56,719 nucleotides of DNA, from the NCBI GenBank assembly GCA_017624735.1, contig JAGAMK010000014.1, positions 1 through 56,719 on the forward strand. Reading direction: 5' to 3'. The notes under the pieces were generated by a model. It had not been told where the DNA came from, made no database searches, and saw nothing but the letters and a program-made list of their open reading frames with translations. This document shows positions 33,275-39,331 of the stretch, in pieces (the first letter of the stretch is position 1; each line of letters starts with the position of its first letter). The translations under genes and the position numbers were made by a program. The DNA is from Clostridia bacterium. Lineage in GTDB: Bacteria; Bacillota; Clostridia; Oscillospirales; Acutalibacteraceae.

Positions 33275-33303
33275 TTGCGTTTTTTTAGCATGTGTGATAT
33301 AAT
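33275..33303 (+). promoter_or_regulatory. Promoter of the M23-HprK-PqqD-ABC operon
   Basis: TTGCGT (33275-33280), 17-bp spacer, perfect extended -10 TGATATAAT (hexamer 33298-33303), 62 bases before the M23 gene start. Confidence 0.85.
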
Positions 33304-33365: not shown

Positions 33366-35081
33366 ATGGAATTTCTGGAAATGCTGTATGATGCAATATA
33401 CTTTGTTGGAATACAGACATTGAGATACGGAAAAAGATTTTTAAGATGGCTGTTGTCGCTGATTTTAAAACCAATTAAGGCTATTAGCACAATGTTGATA
33501 ACATTGGCAATTATTATCAATAAATATGCCTTAAAAACATTTCGTAAGACTGTGAATGAGATTAAAAATCTTATTGCTGATGCGAAAGAAGTATTCTCAA
33601 AAAAATCAAAGGATTATGAAAAAAAAGAAAAGAAAAAATTATCTTATTATGTTTCCGTAGCGGTAAAAAAATATAAGACTGCGTTCACTTATACAATGAA
33701 TCTTGTAATACCGGCTGTTTCACTTGTTTTGCTTTTGAATGTGGTGGGACTCTGGTCAGAAACAAAATTTGCGTTACAAATTAGTTACAAGGATGAAGTA
33801 ATCGGATATGTACAGAATGAGGATGTGTACAAAGAGGCAAGAAAACTTGCGTATGACCGTCTTGATACAGGGACAAATACACTGACGATTGATGGTGATA
33901 ATTCTCAAAAAACACCGATTATTAACACTCCTGAATATAAGATTGTTCCGGTAAAACGAAGCCAGATAAACACAGCGACAGAAATATGTGATAAGCTTAT
34001 TGAAAAATCTAATAGTAAAATCACAAATGCCTGTGGAGTTTATATTGATGGAGAATTCGTTTGTGCAGTAAAAAATGAGACAGATGCTTTGAGCGTTTTT
34101 GATACAATTTTGTCGGAAAATGAAACCGGCGATGCAAATGCAGTTGTAAGCTTTGTGGAAAATATCGACTATATTCAAGGTCTTTATCCTGACAACGAAA
34201 ACACAATTAAGGATGCTGCTTTCTTGCAACAAAAACTCAAAACAAACAAGCGAGATGCAAAATACTATACCGTTTTAGACGGCGATACTCTTTCTAAAGT
34301 TGCCGAGAAATTCGAGTTGTCAGCTTCATATATATCGGAATTAAATCCTCATATCACAGAGGATTTGCTTCCAGGAGAGAATCTTCTTGTGCAAAAGGAA
34401 GAAAAATATATACAGGTACAAACAACCAAGACTGAATATAGCGAAGTTGAAATACCTTTTGAAACTATAAAGATTAATACAGACACTCTCTATATAGGTG
34501 ATAGCAGAACAGTTACCAAAGGTCAAAAAGGATTGGAAAAAGTTACCCAATTGGTTACATATATCGATGGGGCTGTTGTTTCTTCAAGAGAGGTTTCCAG
34601 AACGGTTGTTAAGGAGTCTGTAAGTGAAAAGATTCATGTGGGAACAAAAAAGAGTCCATATTCTTCAGGTGGAGCAGTATCCTTTGGTGGTAAGTTTGTT
34701 TGGCCCGCAATAGGTGCTTTTGAAATTTCATCATATTATGGTGCTCGTGATTTGGGCGATGGATGGCACGACGGAATTGATATTGTGCGACCGGGCGGAA
34801 GTACAGGTTGTACCATTATTGCTGCAGAAAGCGGAACAGTTGTTCATGCAGGTTGGAAAAACACTGCAGGATATGCAGTTATCATTGACCACGGAAACGG
34901 AATTCAAACTCGTTATTATCACATGAAGCAGGGTTCAATTGTTGTGTCAGCAGGGCAGAAAGTTTCCCGAGGACAACCAATTGGACAAATAGGTGCAACT
35001 GGATTTGTAACAGGTCCTCATCTTCATTTTGAAGTGAGAGTAAATGGTAAGGGCGTTAATCCGCTACCATATTTAAAATAA
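33366..35081 (+). CDS. Membrane-anchored LysM-G5-M23 cell-wall endopeptidase
   Basis: 571 aa. A long basic/amphipathic N terminus with a hydrophobic stretch (about 26-51) is followed by a clear membrane helix at about 108-128. Outside lie a helical linker, a LysM domain (about 299-343), a G5 domain (about 349-425) and a C-terminal LytM/M23 peptidase (about 445-571). Zinc ligands and catalytic residues are H468-x3-D472, H552-x-H554 and H519. It should cut peptidoglycan cross-bridges at the cell surface. Thirteen bases separate it from the HPr-kinase-like gene, which places a wall hydrolase at the head of a peptide-processing-like operon. Confidence 0.92.
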   Translation: MEFLEMLYDAIYFVGIQTLRYGKRFLRWLLSLILKPIKAISTMLITLAIIINKYALKTFRKTVNEIKNLIADAKEVFSKKSKDYEKKEKKKLSYYVSVAVKKYKTAFTYTMNLVIPAVSLVLLLNVVGLWSETKFALQISYKDEVIGYVQNEDVYKEARKLAYDRLDTGTNTLTIDGDNSQKTPIINTPEYKIVPVKRSQINTATEICDKLIEKSNSKITNACGVYIDGEFVCAVKNETDALSVFDTILSENETGDANAVVSFVENIDYIQGLYPDNENTIKDAAFLQQKLKTNKRDAKYYTVLDGDTLSKVAEKFELSASYISELNPHITEDLLPGENLLVQKEEKYIQVQTTKTEYSEVEIPFETIKINTDTLYIGDSRTVTKGQKGLEKVTQLVTYIDGAVVSSREVSRTVVKESVSEKIHVGTKKSPYSSGGAVSFGGKFVWPAIGAFEISSYYGARDLGDGWHDGIDIVRPGGSTGCTIIAAESGTVVHAGWKNTAGYAVIIDHGNGIQTRYYHMKQGSIVVSAGQKVSRGQPIGQIGATGFVTGPHLHFEVRVNGKGVNPLPYLK

Positions 35082-35093
35082 GGTAGGGTAAAA

Positions 35094-35813
35094 ATGGAAC
35101 AATTTATAATTGCCGGGCTAAAAACTGAATATGAAGTTCAGGGCGAACTCTTGAGAAGTCGTTCAAAGGGATATAAAGCAAGTTTTGATAGCGCAGAAGC
35201 TCAGATTAGTTTCAGAATAAAAAAGGAGTTTCTTCAGAAAAAACAGCAGGAACTTCCCCATCTTTCAGCGGATGAGCATGAATACATGTGGACGGGTGAA
35301 GCATTTTATAATGAGTTAATCAAGCACAACGGAATGATGTTACATTCATCATGTGTGGAAAAGGATGGTCAAGCATATCTTTTCTCTGCAAGAAGTGGCA
35401 CGGGTAAATCAACCCATACTCATTTGTGGCTTGAGAATTTGTCGGGAACACGAATTATAAATGATGACAAACCTGCGTTAGTGTGCGAAGATGGTAAATG
35501 GTATGTGTGGGGAACACCTTTTTCAGGAAAAACCGACGAGAATGTCAATGTTAAAATTCCTGTAAGAGCAATAATTTTCTTGCACAGAAGTGAAGAGAAT
35601 AAAGTTGAAAAATTGTCTCCGGCAAGGTCGGTAGGACTTTTACTTGAACAGACAATAAACCCTGTAAATAGGGAAATGGCAGAAAAAATGTTGGATTTGG
35701 TGGATATGCTTTTGAGGAGAGTGCCTACATTTTCGTTAGGATGCAATATGGACCCTCAGGCAGCAGTCATTGCATATAGTGAAATTGAAAGGATAATAAA
35801 CAATGAAGATTAA
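35094..35813 (+). CDS. HPr-kinase-like P-loop protein of the PqqD-linked type
   Basis: 239 aa. Walker A is S-G-T-G-K105-S-T, preceded by H-S-S-C; I-N-D-D-K-P-A (122-128) is the HprK-style acidic motif and G-T-P-F-S-G-K (140-146) follows. It lacks the N-terminal domain of true HPr kinase/phosphorylase. Such short HprK homologues occur next to PqqD-like genes in RiPP clusters, where some phosphorylate peptides. Here the gene overlaps the PqqD gene by 11 bases, so the two products are made together. The target is unknown: kinase of a peptide, of PqqD or of a surface protein are all open. Confidence 0.82.
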   Translation: MEQFIIAGLKTEYEVQGELLRSRSKGYKASFDSAEAQISFRIKKEFLQKKQQELPHLSADEHEYMWTGEAFYNELIKHNGMMLHSSCVEKDGQAYLFSARSGTGKSTHTHLWLENLSGTRIINDDKPALVCEDGKWYVWGTPFSGKTDENVNVKIPVRAIIFLHRSEENKVEKLSPARSVGLLLEQTINPVNREMAEKMLDLVDMLLRRVPTFSLGCNMDPQAAVIAYSEIERIINNED

Positions 35814-36069
35814 AGATGGATTTATATTAAAGGATGTTGCAGGTAGTAAAATTGTTATCGCAACAGGTGAACAGAGAATGAATTTCAATGGTGTTATCAC
35901 CTTTAACGAAGTTGGTGCAGAGGTTTTTAATCTTCTTGACGGAACTAATTCTGTGGAAGATATAGTTGCGAAGATTTCAAGTGATTATAACGCACCTGTT
36001 GAAATCGTAAAAGCAGACATAGAAAAACTTATAGAGAAAATGAAAAAACACAATCTTATTGAAGAATAA
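35803..36069 (+). CDS. PqqD-like RiPP recognition element (RRE) protein
   Basis: 88 aa, the normal length of free-standing PqqD. Pattern: an N-terminal beta-strand pair, the F-N-G-V-I-T-F-N-E-V-G-A-E-V-F-N-L-L-D-G core, then a winged-helix end with V-x-x-D-I-E-K-L-I-E-K-M. PqqD/RRE domains bind leader peptides and present them to modifying enzymes or kinases. AAAGGA precedes the ATG inside the kinase gene. No radical SAM enzyme, cyclase or peptidase is present nearby. Confidence 0.85.
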   Translation: MKIKDGFILKDVAGSKIVIATGEQRMNFNGVITFNEVGAEVFNLLDGTNSVEDIVAKISSDYNAPVEIVKADIEKLIEKMKKHNLIEE

Positions 36070-36079
36070 GGATATTGAG

Positions 36080-37720
36080 ATGAAGGAAAAATCAACTTTT
36101 AAATGGATGTATAGAAACTGTGGCGGACGCATAAAAGAGGGTGTAGTGCTTGTTGTACTTAACGCCTGGTCTGCTGTGTGTGTAACTATATTTGCGCTTT
36201 TATCGCAAAAGGTTATGGACAGTGCTCAAATTGGTGACAAGACATCTTTGATAAGGAATTCAGTATATCTTTTACTTTTGATTTTATCTCAGATTTTATC
36301 AAGAGTTGTGGCTTCGTTTGTTGAGGCCATAAGCCAAGGAAAAGCAGAAATCAATTTGAGAACAAGTGTTTTTTCTAATATAATTCGTGGAAATTATGCA
36401 GATTCAGTTGAAAATCACAGCGGAGATTTAATGACGCGTTTAACTGCAGATGTACAGACAGTAAGCGATAACTACGTTCATATTTTTCCTGCGGCAATTG
36501 CTTTTGTTGTGAGAATTCTCAGCGGCGCAATAGCTCTTTATCAAATTGACAAAAACTTTGCCACTATATTTGTTTTTTGTGGAGCATTAATCGTTGTTGT
36601 AGCAGCACTTTCGAGAAAACATTTAAAGAAATTGCATCGCAGAGTGCAAGAAAAAGATTCAAAAGTACGTTCTTTTATGCAGGAAATGATTGAGAATCTC
36701 TTTGCTATAAAGGTTTTTGGAATTGAAGAGAAAATTATAAAAATCTCTGCTAAGCAACAGAAAAAATTCTATCGTGAAAAAGTAAGAAAAAAAGGTTTTT
36801 CAATAATTGCAGGAATTGGTTTTTCTCTTGCTTTTGCAGTAGGCTTTTTAGCAGCGGTAGCATATGGCTCATACGGTGTTTTGAATGGGACAATGACGTT
36901 TGGTGCAGTTGTTGCTATTGTGCAGCTTGTAAACCAGTTACAGTCTCCAGTTGTGGGAATAACTGGAATTTTACCCTCGCTTTTTGCCATGACTACATCT
37001 GCTCAACGTCTTATGGAAATCTGTGGTGAAAGTAAAGAAACAACAAAAGATATCTCTGTTGATTATGACGATTTCGTGAGGATTAAGGTTAGAGATGCAG
37101 TTTTTGGTTATGGTGACGAGAAGGTTTTTTCCAATGCGTCATTTACTGTTAACAAGGGTGAATTTATTGGAATAAAAGGTCCTTCAGGTTCAGGAAAATC
37201 CACGGTGTTAAAGCTCATAACCGGTTTGTATCCCGTTGATGGGGGAAAATTTACTATTGAAACAAGGGGAAAAGAATACGATTGTAAACAGATAAAGAAT
37301 TTGTTTTCATTTGTGCCACAAGGAAATATGCTTTTCAGCGGTACTGTAAAAGAAAATCTTACACTTCTTAATCCCAATGCAACAGACGAGGATATAAAAA
37401 GTGCATTGACAACGGCATCGGCTGAGTTTGCTTATGAACTTGATGATGGTCTAGACTTTGTTTTGGGCGAAGCTGGCGCAGGAGTTTCTGAAGGACAAGC
37501 ACAGAGAATTGCTATTGCAAGAGCTCTTTTAGCGGGAAACGGAGTCCTTCTTATGGATGAATCCACCAGTGCTCTCGATGCAGAAACAGAGGAAAAAGTA
37601 ATAAACAACTTGAAAGAGAAAAAGAATTTAACCGTATTGATTATTACGCATAGGGAATCGGTTCTGGAAAAGTGTAACAGAGTAATTACGGTTGCTAATG
37701 GTATTATTGAAGAAAATTAA
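36080..37720 (+). CDS. ABC exporter (fused membrane and ATPase domains)
   Basis: 546 aa from ATG 36080 (AAGGAT 6 bases upstream); an in-frame TTG at 36059 lies in the PqqD gene. Six membrane helices (about 20-315) precede the nucleotide-binding domain: Walker A G-P-S-G-S-G-K-S at 367-374, Q-loop Q414, signature V-S-E-G-Q at 469-473 (variant of LSGGQ), Walker B L-L-M-D-E at 490-494, and the T-H-R H-loop. The half-transporter should homodimerise. There is no N-terminal C39 peptidase domain, so it does not cleave leader peptides itself. The order suggests it exports whatever the HprK/PqqD pair handles. Confidence 0.92.
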   Translation: MKEKSTFKWMYRNCGGRIKEGVVLVVLNAWSAVCVTIFALLSQKVMDSAQIGDKTSLIRNSVYLLLLILSQILSRVVASFVEAISQGKAEINLRTSVFSNIIRGNYADSVENHSGDLMTRLTADVQTVSDNYVHIFPAAIAFVVRILSGAIALYQIDKNFATIFVFCGALIVVVAALSRKHLKKLHRRVQEKDSKVRSFMQEMIENLFAIKVFGIEEKIIKISAKQQKKFYREKVRKKGFSIIAGIGFSLAFAVGFLAAVAYGSYGVLNGTMTFGAVVAIVQLVNQLQSPVVGITGILPSLFAMTTSAQRLMEICGESKETTKDISVDYDDFVRIKVRDAVFGYGDEKVFSNASFTVNKGEFIGIKGPSGSGKSTVLKLITGLYPVDGGKFTIETRGKEYDCKQIKNLFSFVPQGNMLFSGTVKENLTLLNPNATDEDIKSALTTASAEFAYELDDGLDFVLGEAGAGVSEGQAQRIAIARALLAGNGVLLMDESTSALDAETEEKVINNLKEKKNLTVLIITHRESVLEKCNRVITVANGIIEEN

Positions 37721-37749: not shown

Positions 37750-37778
37750 TTGCAATAATTTTATTGCTTTGGTATAAT
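37750..37778 (+). promoter_or_regulatory. Promoter of the tyrosine kinase gene
   Basis: TTGCAA (37750-37755), 17-bp spacer, extended -10 TGGTATAAT with TATAAT at 37773-37778. No hairpin terminator is seen between the ABC gene and this promoter. Confidence 0.85.
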
Positions 37779-37819: not shown

Positions 37820-39331
37820 ATGGAATACAATACAAAAAATGCTCAAGTTAATGATGGCATAGATTTTCAGGTCATAGCGCAGTATGCCGTTCGAATTGTT
37901 CAGAAATGGTGGGCTATTTTGCTTAGCGCAGTAATTTGTGCAAGCGTTGGCTTTATTATCGCTAAGGTTACTTATGTTCCTAAGTATACATGCACAATGG
38001 AATTTGCTGTAAGCAACCGAGCAGAAAATACAAGTTCTGCTGGTCAGACATCATCTGACATCAATGCAAGTACTATGCTTGCGAAAAACTATTTGCGTTT
38101 AACAACATCTGCTGACTTTATGAATACTGTTGCAAGTCAGTCTGGTTACACAGTAAACGGCAAACCTCTTACAGGTGCAGCGGTTAAGAAAATGATTAAA
38201 TCAACACATATTGAAGATACATCATTTATCGTTGTTACGATTACATCATCAGACCCTAAAGTTTCTTATAGTGTTGCAAAAAGTTATGTAAACAACTTTG
38301 AAAACTTTGCAAAAGGAATTTTGCCAAGCACAAACGCTAAGGTTTCTGAACTTCCTGTAGAGCCAGAGTATGCTAATCCTAACAATACTACACTTTTATA
38401 CTCTCTTTTAGGTTTCGTTTTTGGTGCTGCTATTGTTATGCTTGCAATTTGCATTATCATTTTCATTAAAGATACTGCTAAAGTTCCTGATGACATTACA
38501 AATAAACTTGGTCAGAAAATCATTGGCTCCATCGTTCATCTTAAAAAGCCAACAGAAAATAAGAGCCTTCTTATTACTGACAAGAAAACAGGATTTATGT
38601 TTATCGAGTCATTTAAATTGATTCGTACAAAACTTGAAAATATCGCTAAGAGACATGATTATAAAGTGTTTGTTTTCACAAGTACAATGGAAAATGAAGG
38701 TAAAACAACAATTGCAACAAATACAGCTCTTGCTCTTGCAAAAACCGGTAAATCAGTTCTCTTGATTGATGCGGACCTTCGTAAACCATCAGTTTGTAAA
38801 GAACTTGGTATTTCAGCTGCTAATGATTTAGGTCTTCCCGGCGTTGTTTCAGGTGAAAGAACATTAAGCGACTCAATCAAGTATTTTGAAAAATTCAATC
38901 TCTTCCTTTTGGTTACAAGTCAGCCAATCGCAGAATCAGCTGAACTTTTATCTGCAGATGAAATGTCAGACGTAATGGATGCTGTAAGAAACGAGTTTGA
39001 CTACGTTATTATTGATACTCCTCCTGCAGGTCTTGTTGCTGACGCAAGTATTATTGCACAGTATGCAGATGCTAACGTTATGGTTGTTCGTAGAGACCGC
39101 GCATCAATGCGTAGAATCAGAAGAACAATTGACGATATGTCTGGTACAGGTAAAGAGGTTGTTGGTTGTATTTATAACGATGCTGAAAACGGTTCGGTTC
39201 TTAGCTTTATTAAGAAGAATAAGAAGGGCAAAAAAGGCTACGGTTATGGATATGGCTACGGTTATGGATATGGCTATGGTTATGGTTATGGATATGGTCA
39301 TGACAATGAAAGCAAAAAACCCAAGAAATAA
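37820..39331 (+). CDS. Wzz-type bacterial tyrosine kinase with (Gly-Tyr)10 tail
   Basis: 503 aa. A Wzz-like chain-length domain with membrane helices at about 31-50 and 193-215 encloses an outside loop. It is fused to a cytoplasmic BY-kinase: Walker A S-T-M-E-N-E-G-K295-T-T, Walker A' L-L-I-D-A-D-L (314-320) and Walker B V-I-I-D-T-P (396-401). Residues 473-492 are ten Gly-Tyr pairs, followed by His and a Lys-rich end; this replaces the usual autophosphorylated tyrosine cluster. Such proteins control polysaccharide chain length and export. No glycosyltransferase, Wzx/Wzy or phosphatase gene is nearby, which makes it an orphan member. Confidence 0.92.
   Translation: MEYNTKNAQVNDGIDFQVIAQYAVRIVQKWWAILLSAVICASVGFIIAKVTYVPKYTCTMEFAVSNRAENTSSAGQTSSDINASTMLAKNYLRLTTSADFMNTVASQSGYTVNGKPLTGAAVKKMIKSTHIEDTSFIVVTITSSDPKVSYSVAKSYVNNFENFAKGILPSTNAKVSELPVEPEYANPNNTTLLYSLLGFVFGAAIVMLAICIIIFIKDTAKVPDDITNKLGQKIIGSIVHLKKPTENKSLLITDKKTGFMFIESFKLIRTKLENIAKRHDYKVFVFTSTMENEGKTTIATNTALALAKTGKSVLLIDADLRKPSVCKELGISAANDLGLPGVVSGERTLSDSIKYFEKFNLFLLVTSQPIAESAELLSADEMSDVMDAVRNEFDYVIIDTPPAGLVADASIIAQYADANVMVVRRDRASMRRIRRTIDDMSGTGKEVVGCIYNDAENGSVLSFIKKNKKGKKGYGYGYGYGYGYGYGYGYGYGHDNESKKPKK
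39236..39295 (+). repeat. Coding hexanucleotide repeat (Gly-Tyr)10
   Basis: Ten tandem GGN-TAY units with drifting third positions (GGC TAC, GGT TAT, GGA TAT in a partly 18-base higher-order pattern). Copy-number change would lengthen or shorten the kinase tail without frameshift. Confidence 0.9.

Follow-up and report, generated by a model that had tools for sequence, protein, structure and literature searches.

What do a kinase and a leader-binding protein act upon when no substrate gene lies beside them? The question is raised by four genes in a 56,719-nucleotide stretch of DNA from a Clostridia bacterium of the gut (the window: one whole contig, C68, of a 2.04 Mb genome in 69 contigs that is 97.5% complete), in which a cell-wall endopeptidase gene is followed by genes for a kinase of the HprK type, a small PqqD-like protein and an ABC exporter. 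We propose that the last three are the lppK, lppB and lppD genes of a pathway of the type that makes linear polyphosphorylated peptides (LPPs), which are ribosomally synthesized and post-translationally modified peptides (RiPPs), and that the other genes of this pathway lie at two further loci of the genome; on the sequence comparisons given below we consider this likely. LPP RiPPs were described in Bacillota in May 2026 (PMC13381572), and according to the main text of that report LppK puts several phosphates on one Ser of the precursor, LppB binds a leader with a YxxP motif, the leader is taken off by LppS, the product is pumped out by LppD, and the NTP transferase LppN has no effect in the system studied; the biological role of LPPs is stated there to be unknown.

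The four genes are all on the forward strand, with gaps of 12, −11 and 10 bp between them. The first (33366..35081) encodes an endopeptidase of the LysM-G5-M23 type, with Pfam matches to all three domains, and the second (35094..35813) a protein of 239 amino acids (aa) that is LppK-like by its motifs and by orthology, a putative HprK-type Ser kinase. The third (35803..36069) encodes an LppB-like PqqD protein or RiPP recognition element (RRE) of 88 aa, which matches PF05402 above the cut-off (56 bits) and is predicted to bind a leader. The fourth (36080..37720, starting with the ATG at 36080) encodes a 546 aa LppD-like exporter of the MsbA type; Pfam gives only ABC_membrane and ABC_tran, with no C39 peptidase, and the MsbA model is among the best matches but below its own cut-off. 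In these respects the sequence-only reading, an earlier annotation made from the letters of the window, is borne out, as it is in seeing no precursor gene between 33.1 and 37.8 kb: a regular-expression scan of open reading frames (ORFs) of 25–220 aa yields five matches in the whole window, none of them there. Its further statement that no modifying enzyme is visible is true only locally, because the kinase is itself the primary modifying enzyme of LPP pathways.

Gene order in the genus and the missing parts

The genus of the window genome was sampled as 39 genomes (this one and 38 others), together with 59 genomes from outside it. A kinase orthologue is present in 35 of the 38 (36 of 39 in all), the three genomes without one being 68–88% complete; the nearest named record, 84% identical in the kinase, is a 'Clostridia bacterium' metagenome-assembled genome from water-buffalo cecum. 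Among the first 40 kinase loci compared, 35 are of the genus, 16 from the clade of the window and 19 from other species, and kinase and PqqD stand together in all 35. In the 16 window-clade loci (the window itself not counted) the M23, kinase and PqqD genes follow one another in every case, the ABC gene is present in 13 and a Wzz/BY-kinase gene in 14, and no peptidase gene (lppS) is found at the kinase locus. The 19 loci of other species all have the order kinase-PqqD-peptidase-ABC, that is lppK-lppB-lppS-lppD, with Wzz in 18, and in four of them an LppA-like precursor ORF stands just upstream of lppK. The M23-headed group (16 rows including the window) forms one clade, 100/99, in a kinase tree of 38 rows, from which one clade locus, lost from the gene calls, is omitted.

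The M23 gene, which the sequence-only reading took as part of the system, is probably an upstream neighbour and not a component of the pathway. One could suppose instead a surface-modification unit built around it, with the peptidase or the wall as the target of kinase and RRE, and the retention of M23 directly upstream of the kinase in all 16 clade loci is in keeping with this. However, in the stretches fetched M23 adjoins the kinase at none of the other 19 genus loci, whose kinase units do without it and whose genomes carry it elsewhere in 18 of 19 cases (all but G031); overall the gene is present in 38 of 39 genus genomes (E ≤ 1e-40). The protein also has no [YW]xxP motif. We regard a unit centred on M23 as very improbable, and rejected M23 as its functional head on these grounds. 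Since M23 is a genus-core gene and at 7 of 12 loci from other species comes after a gene that by eye is RecG-like, a rearrangement within the window clade seems to have brought it in front of the kinase.

The sequence-only reading had suggested looking for conserved small ORFs in the same neighbourhood of related genomes, and such ORFs, LppA-like and placed upstream of lppK, do occur in relatives. Scanning the fetched loci for the motif detects them, on the same strand as the kinase, at four genus loci (L069, L073, L077 and L078, the last two with two ORFs each) and at four from other genera (L080, with two, L084, L091 and L092). They lie 78–455 bp from the kinase gene, except at L091, where the distance is 731 bp and a 212-aa ORF intervenes. 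A profile (A1) of 11 linked ORFs, which holds no window-clade sequence, matches the window genome on contig C30 (C30:34457-34567, E 3.4e-7). The corresponding ORF (C30:34454-34576), preceded by the ribosome site AGAAAGGAG, encodes a candidate precursor of 40 aa, MKYMTPDFDVTVYEIEDVITLSFGNSDPDTDAGMGDGWWG, with a YxxP leader and the conserved TxS. Precursor-like ORFs (E ≤ 0.001) occur in 35 of the 39 genus genomes. Among 52 collected peptides YxxP is present in 51, a count to be read with the fact that [YWF]xxP was built into the search pattern; a Ser lies 13–18 residues past the motif Pro in 50, and the core is net acidic in all 52. In an alignment of 22 rows Y, T and S are kept in at least 90% and P in all, while the HQ..FET middle is not kept.

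The putative leader peptidase and NTP transferase are encoded on contig C65, by genes that overlap by 4 bp. LppS (C65:17752-18279), of the SipW-like signal peptidase type, matches the genus profile with E 7.3e-55 and has Ser and His residues that are invariant in the LppS alignment (A4); the best public model, TIGR02228, gives it 31 bits, below the cut-off of 51.85. LppN (C65:16610-17755) is an NTP_transf_5 protein (PF14907, 154 bits, E 7.3e-45) and the sole copy in the genome. Of the 39 genus genomes 36 encode LppS and 37 encode LppN. Within the window clade the lppS gene lies apart from the kinase in 15 of the 16 other genomes and was not found in the remaining one (G005, 85% complete). With the precursor on C30, lppS and lppN on C65, and lppK, lppB and lppD in the window, all six LPP gene types, as identified by sequence, are present in the window genome, spread over three loci: the window clade has lost the linkage of the genes, not the genes. 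The earlier suggestion of a phosphopeptide-type system with a substrate encoded elsewhere is supported by this candidate precursor, together with the LppS and the LppN.

The locus might alternatively be a decaying remnant, in the course of disappearing after the loss of its peptidase and precursor. LppS and lppA are indeed gone from it, and lppD too at three of the 16 clade loci; of the three species concerned, G004 and G020 carry an ABC gene of 34–35% identity elsewhere, and G030 one of 32%. However, in a comparison of the window genome with its nearest relative, G027, by the NG86 method, the kinase (nonsynonymous rate, dN, 0.108; synonymous rate, dS, 1.111), PqqD (0.042 and 0.907) and ABC (0.068 and 1.163) genes are under purifying selection, with dN/dS of about 0.1 or less, and the catalytic motifs are intact. 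The precursor gene is constrained as well, more strongly over the first 22 codons (0.092/0.566) than as a whole (0.163/0.46), and lppS is retained elsewhere in the clade. Simple decay is disfavoured, and we give it very little credence.

The kinase, the RRE and the C30 candidate precursor

No Pfam family matches the kinase above the cut-off, its highest-ranking NCBIfam models score well short of their thresholds (ScmC with 48 bits against 125, HprK_rel_A with 28 against 200), the HPr(Ser) kinase model has no match to it listed at E ≤ 1, and a PDB sequence search returns only matches at E > 0.4, HprK (1ko7) at E 0.46 among them. Its kinship with HprK appears to lie at the level of the fold and is read from motifs. 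Lack of ATP binding by the HprK-like protein had been named as a finding that would refute the sequence-only reading, but this does not apply, because the Walker A sequence SGTGKST (residues 101–107, 35394-35414, + strand) and the NDDKP motif (35460-35474, + strand) are intact. All 38 sequences of the kinase cluster contain GKST and DDKP, and 37 contain the fuller G.GKST. The PqqD profile matches the LppB crystal structure 9x8z in the PDB with E 1.3e-7, and the lasso RRE TbiB1 better, with 8.4e-11; its N35 and D72 align with the LppB specificity residues N33 and D70 and are invariant in 11 of 11 rows. The order K-B-S-D in the sister species, the presence of a candidate precursor, LppS and LppN in the genome, and these equivalents of N33 and D70 point to an LPP pathway.

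The occurrence of kinase and precursor across genomes bears on whether they are partners. Within the genus it says little, because both are nearly universal. In the 59 genomes outside it a window-type kinase (cut at E < 1e-25, a value chosen after the list was seen) is present in 15 and lppA in 11, with both in 10, kinase only in five, lppA only in one and neither in 43 (Fisher 4.8e-7). The counts, in the same order, are 6/5/1/43 (p 1.0e-4) without the four genomes that seeded the profile, and 11/8/0/40 (p 2.7e-7) if any kinase at E < 1e-3 is admitted; all these p values overstate the case, because related genomes are not independent. Five further genome assemblies were examined by way of named contigs, although one of them, that of L038, belongs to the genus and was part of the sample beforehand. 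A match to lppA at E ≤ 0.01 is present in the L038 genome and in both genomes with an LPP-type kinase (L039 and L040); those of L041 and L042, with a kinase of the type found beside radical S-adenosylmethionine (radical SAM) proteins, have no match at that threshold.

The window genome itself carries a second kinase/RRE system, at C53:2937-10004 (L004:2438-9505), which looks like a radical-SAM RiPP set with a kinase. It comprises two Wzz/BY-kinase-like genes, an ABC gene, PqqD, a radical SAM protein, an HprK_rel_B-like kinase and a candidate precursor of 90 aa, which has a YxxP motif and begins MKKEYVPPKSYLYSIKF. Similar sets occur in relatives too, some with an S26 peptidase. The C30 ORF could be the substrate of this system, the window kinase and PqqD then acting on some other, unseen peptide or protein, and C53 does have an ABC, a PqqD, a radical SAM and an HprK-like kinase gene of its own, while G056, outside the genus, carries lppA with only a radical-SAM-type kinase. 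Nevertheless, C53-type clusters own candidate precursors (L004, L041 and L042), the linked LppA-like ORFs stand upstream of window-type kinases, and lppA is absent from three of four relatives with only the radical-SAM-type kinase (G041, G053 and G072) as well as from the L041 and L042 genomes. We consider this alternative quite unlikely. A separate radical SAM gene on C10 (L005:6438-7805), for a SCIFF-type maturase (TIGR03974, 776 bits) with a PqqD-like N-terminus, is an ordinary ranthipeptide-type gene.

Several observations weigh against the assignment of the window genes to an LPP pathway that serves the C30 precursor. First, 'unlinked' here means off the 56.7-kb contig of the window, in a genome of 69 contigs. 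Second, the exporter gene is missing from three of the 16 clade loci, and lppA is under weaker constraint than the enzymes. Third, the two partners are at times found apart: lppA occurs without a kinase match in G016 (81% complete) and G036 (68%), it is not found (E ≤ 0.001) in four of 39 genus genomes, of which G005, G006 and G007 carry the kinase (G023 has neither), and outside the genus five of the 15 kinase genomes have no lppA match, to which the case of G056 is to be added. Fourth, the kinase, PqqD and ABC set on C53 could in principle use the C30 peptide. Finally, the leader of the genus, YxxPDFDVxxYExEDVITxS, departs from the published LPP consensus, YxxPxVLxHQxIxFETxxS, given in the main text of PMC13381572.

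If the pathway works like that of the LPPs, the PqqD/RRE of the window would bind the C30 precursor through its YMTP motif, and the HprK-type kinase would add one or more phosphates to the conserved Ser of ITLS. Removal of the leader would fall to the SipW-like LppS from C65, with a cut that may follow the conserved Thr; LppN from the same contig may add a further group, and the ABC protein of the window would export the remaining acidic core, roughly 20 aa long. Outside the cell the peptide would probably work at the surface together with the secreted protein whose gene immediately precedes its own, with the capsule, or with both, although such a partnership is speculative.

Neighbours of the precursor and of the kinase unit

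The gene just upstream of the precursor encodes a large secreted protein in 39 of 46 cases by a crude signal-peptide rule, versus 100 of 606 background ORFs. The 46 exclude three precursors without an upstream ORF in reach, do not count three second ORFs again, and retain, as do the 52 peptides, a weak lppA candidate (L071) behind a gene that by eye is prolyl-tRNA synthetase-like. Outside the genus the upstream protein counts as secreted in 8 of 14 cases. In one of these eight the precursor frame that comes after it is interrupted by a stop, and among the six misses one protein is ABC-transporter-like by eye; three more precursors there have no upstream gene.

The upstream proteins differ in length and in full-length family, but BLAST comparison of their last 170 aa joins 37 of the 46 into one linked group. 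Ahead of the last 170 aa, 34 of them are linked as well, so that some kinship extends into the N-terminal parts. A regular expression written for the C-terminal motif recovered no more than 9 of the 46 proteins and gave way to a profile (A2) of nine C-terminal domains from precursor-neighbour proteins, which has 45 matches in 32 of the 39 genomes. In 40 of the 45 a precursor ORF follows within 700 bp on the same strand, and none was found downstream of the other five; with the contigs of the seed rows left out the count is 31 of 36, which is fairer because the domain was defined from precursor neighbours. Conversely, the domain stands upstream of 46 of 68 precursor matches (E ≤ 0.001) and not of the other 22. 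Among 1130 background ORFs A2 has four strong matches, and these fall at the four genus loci where a precursor is linked to the kinase. Outside the genus A2 is weak, reaching 4 of 17 upstream proteins at E ≤ 0.01, so that the shared domain is well established only within the genus.

On C30 the order is a 1,850-aa protein (L145:823-6375), with a weak dockerin match below the cut-off, the 472-aa domain protein, for which no Pfam family is listed, lppA, and a protein with a dockerin domain above the cut-off (L145:8448-9536). The dockerin matches are hints of a surface assembly of the cohesin/dockerin type. One may go further and imagine that LPPs are here core surface components and not conflict antibiotics, that every one is produced alongside a secreted protein with a C-terminal domain dedicated to it, that the kinase and NTP-transferase reactions would ready the phospho-Ser as the point at which that protein or the cell is linked to capsule glycan, and that the domain would be the receptor of the mature peptide; this is an unlikely guess. 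The main text of the LPP report (PMC13381572) contains no secreted, surface or adhesin terms, and the open literature surveyed, including PMC12710340 and PMC13289728, shows no other report on LPPs; the pairing may have been noticed earlier in the supplement or in subscription journals.

Other precursor settings were also seen. Three loci from three species (L155, L177 and L180) share a very similar set, with a response regulator and a sensor kinase by eye, a secreted protein of about 1,100 aa, an LppA-like ORF beginning MKKEYIKPDFEILIFETDDIIT and a lipoprotein-like ORF. The similarity suggests that the precursor locus also exists in a mobile form tied to signalling. Extra LppA-like ORFs lie behind ORFs of 94–130 aa (L196, L198 and L199), behind a secreted-looking protein of 736 aa (L195) and behind a protein of 385 aa whose N-terminus has a stretch resembling a signal sequence (L197). 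On C65 the neighbours of lppS and lppN are by eye nucleotide-sugar and capsule-polysaccharide genes.

In the window the four genes had been placed behind a single promoter, which a consensus scan does not confirm: it finds no forward-strand site just upstream of 33366, and its 13 sites in the window are no excess over the 15.7 of shuffled sequences. An extended −10 element, TGaTATAAT (33295-33303, + strand), is seen by eye upstream of the M23 gene and was not flagged by the scan. The next gene downstream (37820..39331, + strand), for a capsule chain-length protein of the Wzz/BY-kinase type (Pfam Wzz and AAA_31), has a promoter-like site of its own in the scan (37750-37778) and is probably a conserved neighbour in a separate transcription unit. 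Near the C-terminus of its BY-kinase-like product is a GYGYGY run (39230-39331), which is likely the Tyr autophosphorylation cluster; the tail of the C53 paralogue reads GYGYKYGYG.

Comparison with known systems

Three known systems invite comparison. Paeninodin-like lasso peptide clusters likewise combine an HprK-type kinase, a discrete PqqD/RRE, an NTP transferase and an ABC exporter. However, the RRE of the window has the Asn and Asp of the YxxP type whereas paeninodin RREs have Gly and Gln, and no Asn-synthetase-like macrolactam cyclase is found among the six products scanned at the locus (33.4–40.8 kb). A lasso peptide was rejected, there being no B2 leader peptidase (PF13471) over the cut-off in the genome, where the search gives only a partial match of 23.1 bits against 26. 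The SynChlorMet (ScmC/ScmD) and HprK_rel_A systems resemble the locus in that ScmC is the best model for the kinase and in having a PqqD-like partner, but the kinase scores far under the curated cut-offs, and no radical SAM gene is among the same six products.

The LPP system is closest. Five of its features are identified by sequence, namely a kinase with an intact ATP site beside an RRE, an RRE of the LppB type, LppS, LppD and LppN. Set against the main text of PMC13381572, the P. alginolyticus genes lppAKBSDN are of the same six types as those of the window genome, and the order K-B-S-D of the sister species is that of the expressed construct, lppA-K-B-S-D-N. The YxxP leader, the RRE with equivalents of N33 and D70, the conserved Ser at the border of leader and core, and polysaccharide genes nearby are common to both. 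The differences, on the same footing, are as follows. First, the genes of the window genome are split over three loci. Second, the leader consensus differs in its middle part; the cleavage predicted after the conserved Thr would fall at IT/LS here and at ET/AQS in LPP. Third, the kinase is present in 36 of 39 genomes of this Clostridia genus, in contrast to the 80 of 9173, patchily distributed, among Bacilli, and its prevalence in the genus speaks for a house role and not a sporadic weapon. Fourth, the pairing of precursor and secreted protein does not appear in that main text.

Mining for RiPPs usually expects the precursor to be clustered with its enzymes. The apparent orphan operon described here is instead one third of a complete gene set, which was recovered through comparison with species that have kept the genes side by side. 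Relative to the main text of the LPP report, what is new is the split over three loci, the near-universality in a genus of Clostridia, to which LPPs would now extend, and the location of precursors usually directly downstream of secreted proteins, a pairing that offers a lead on the purpose of LPPs.

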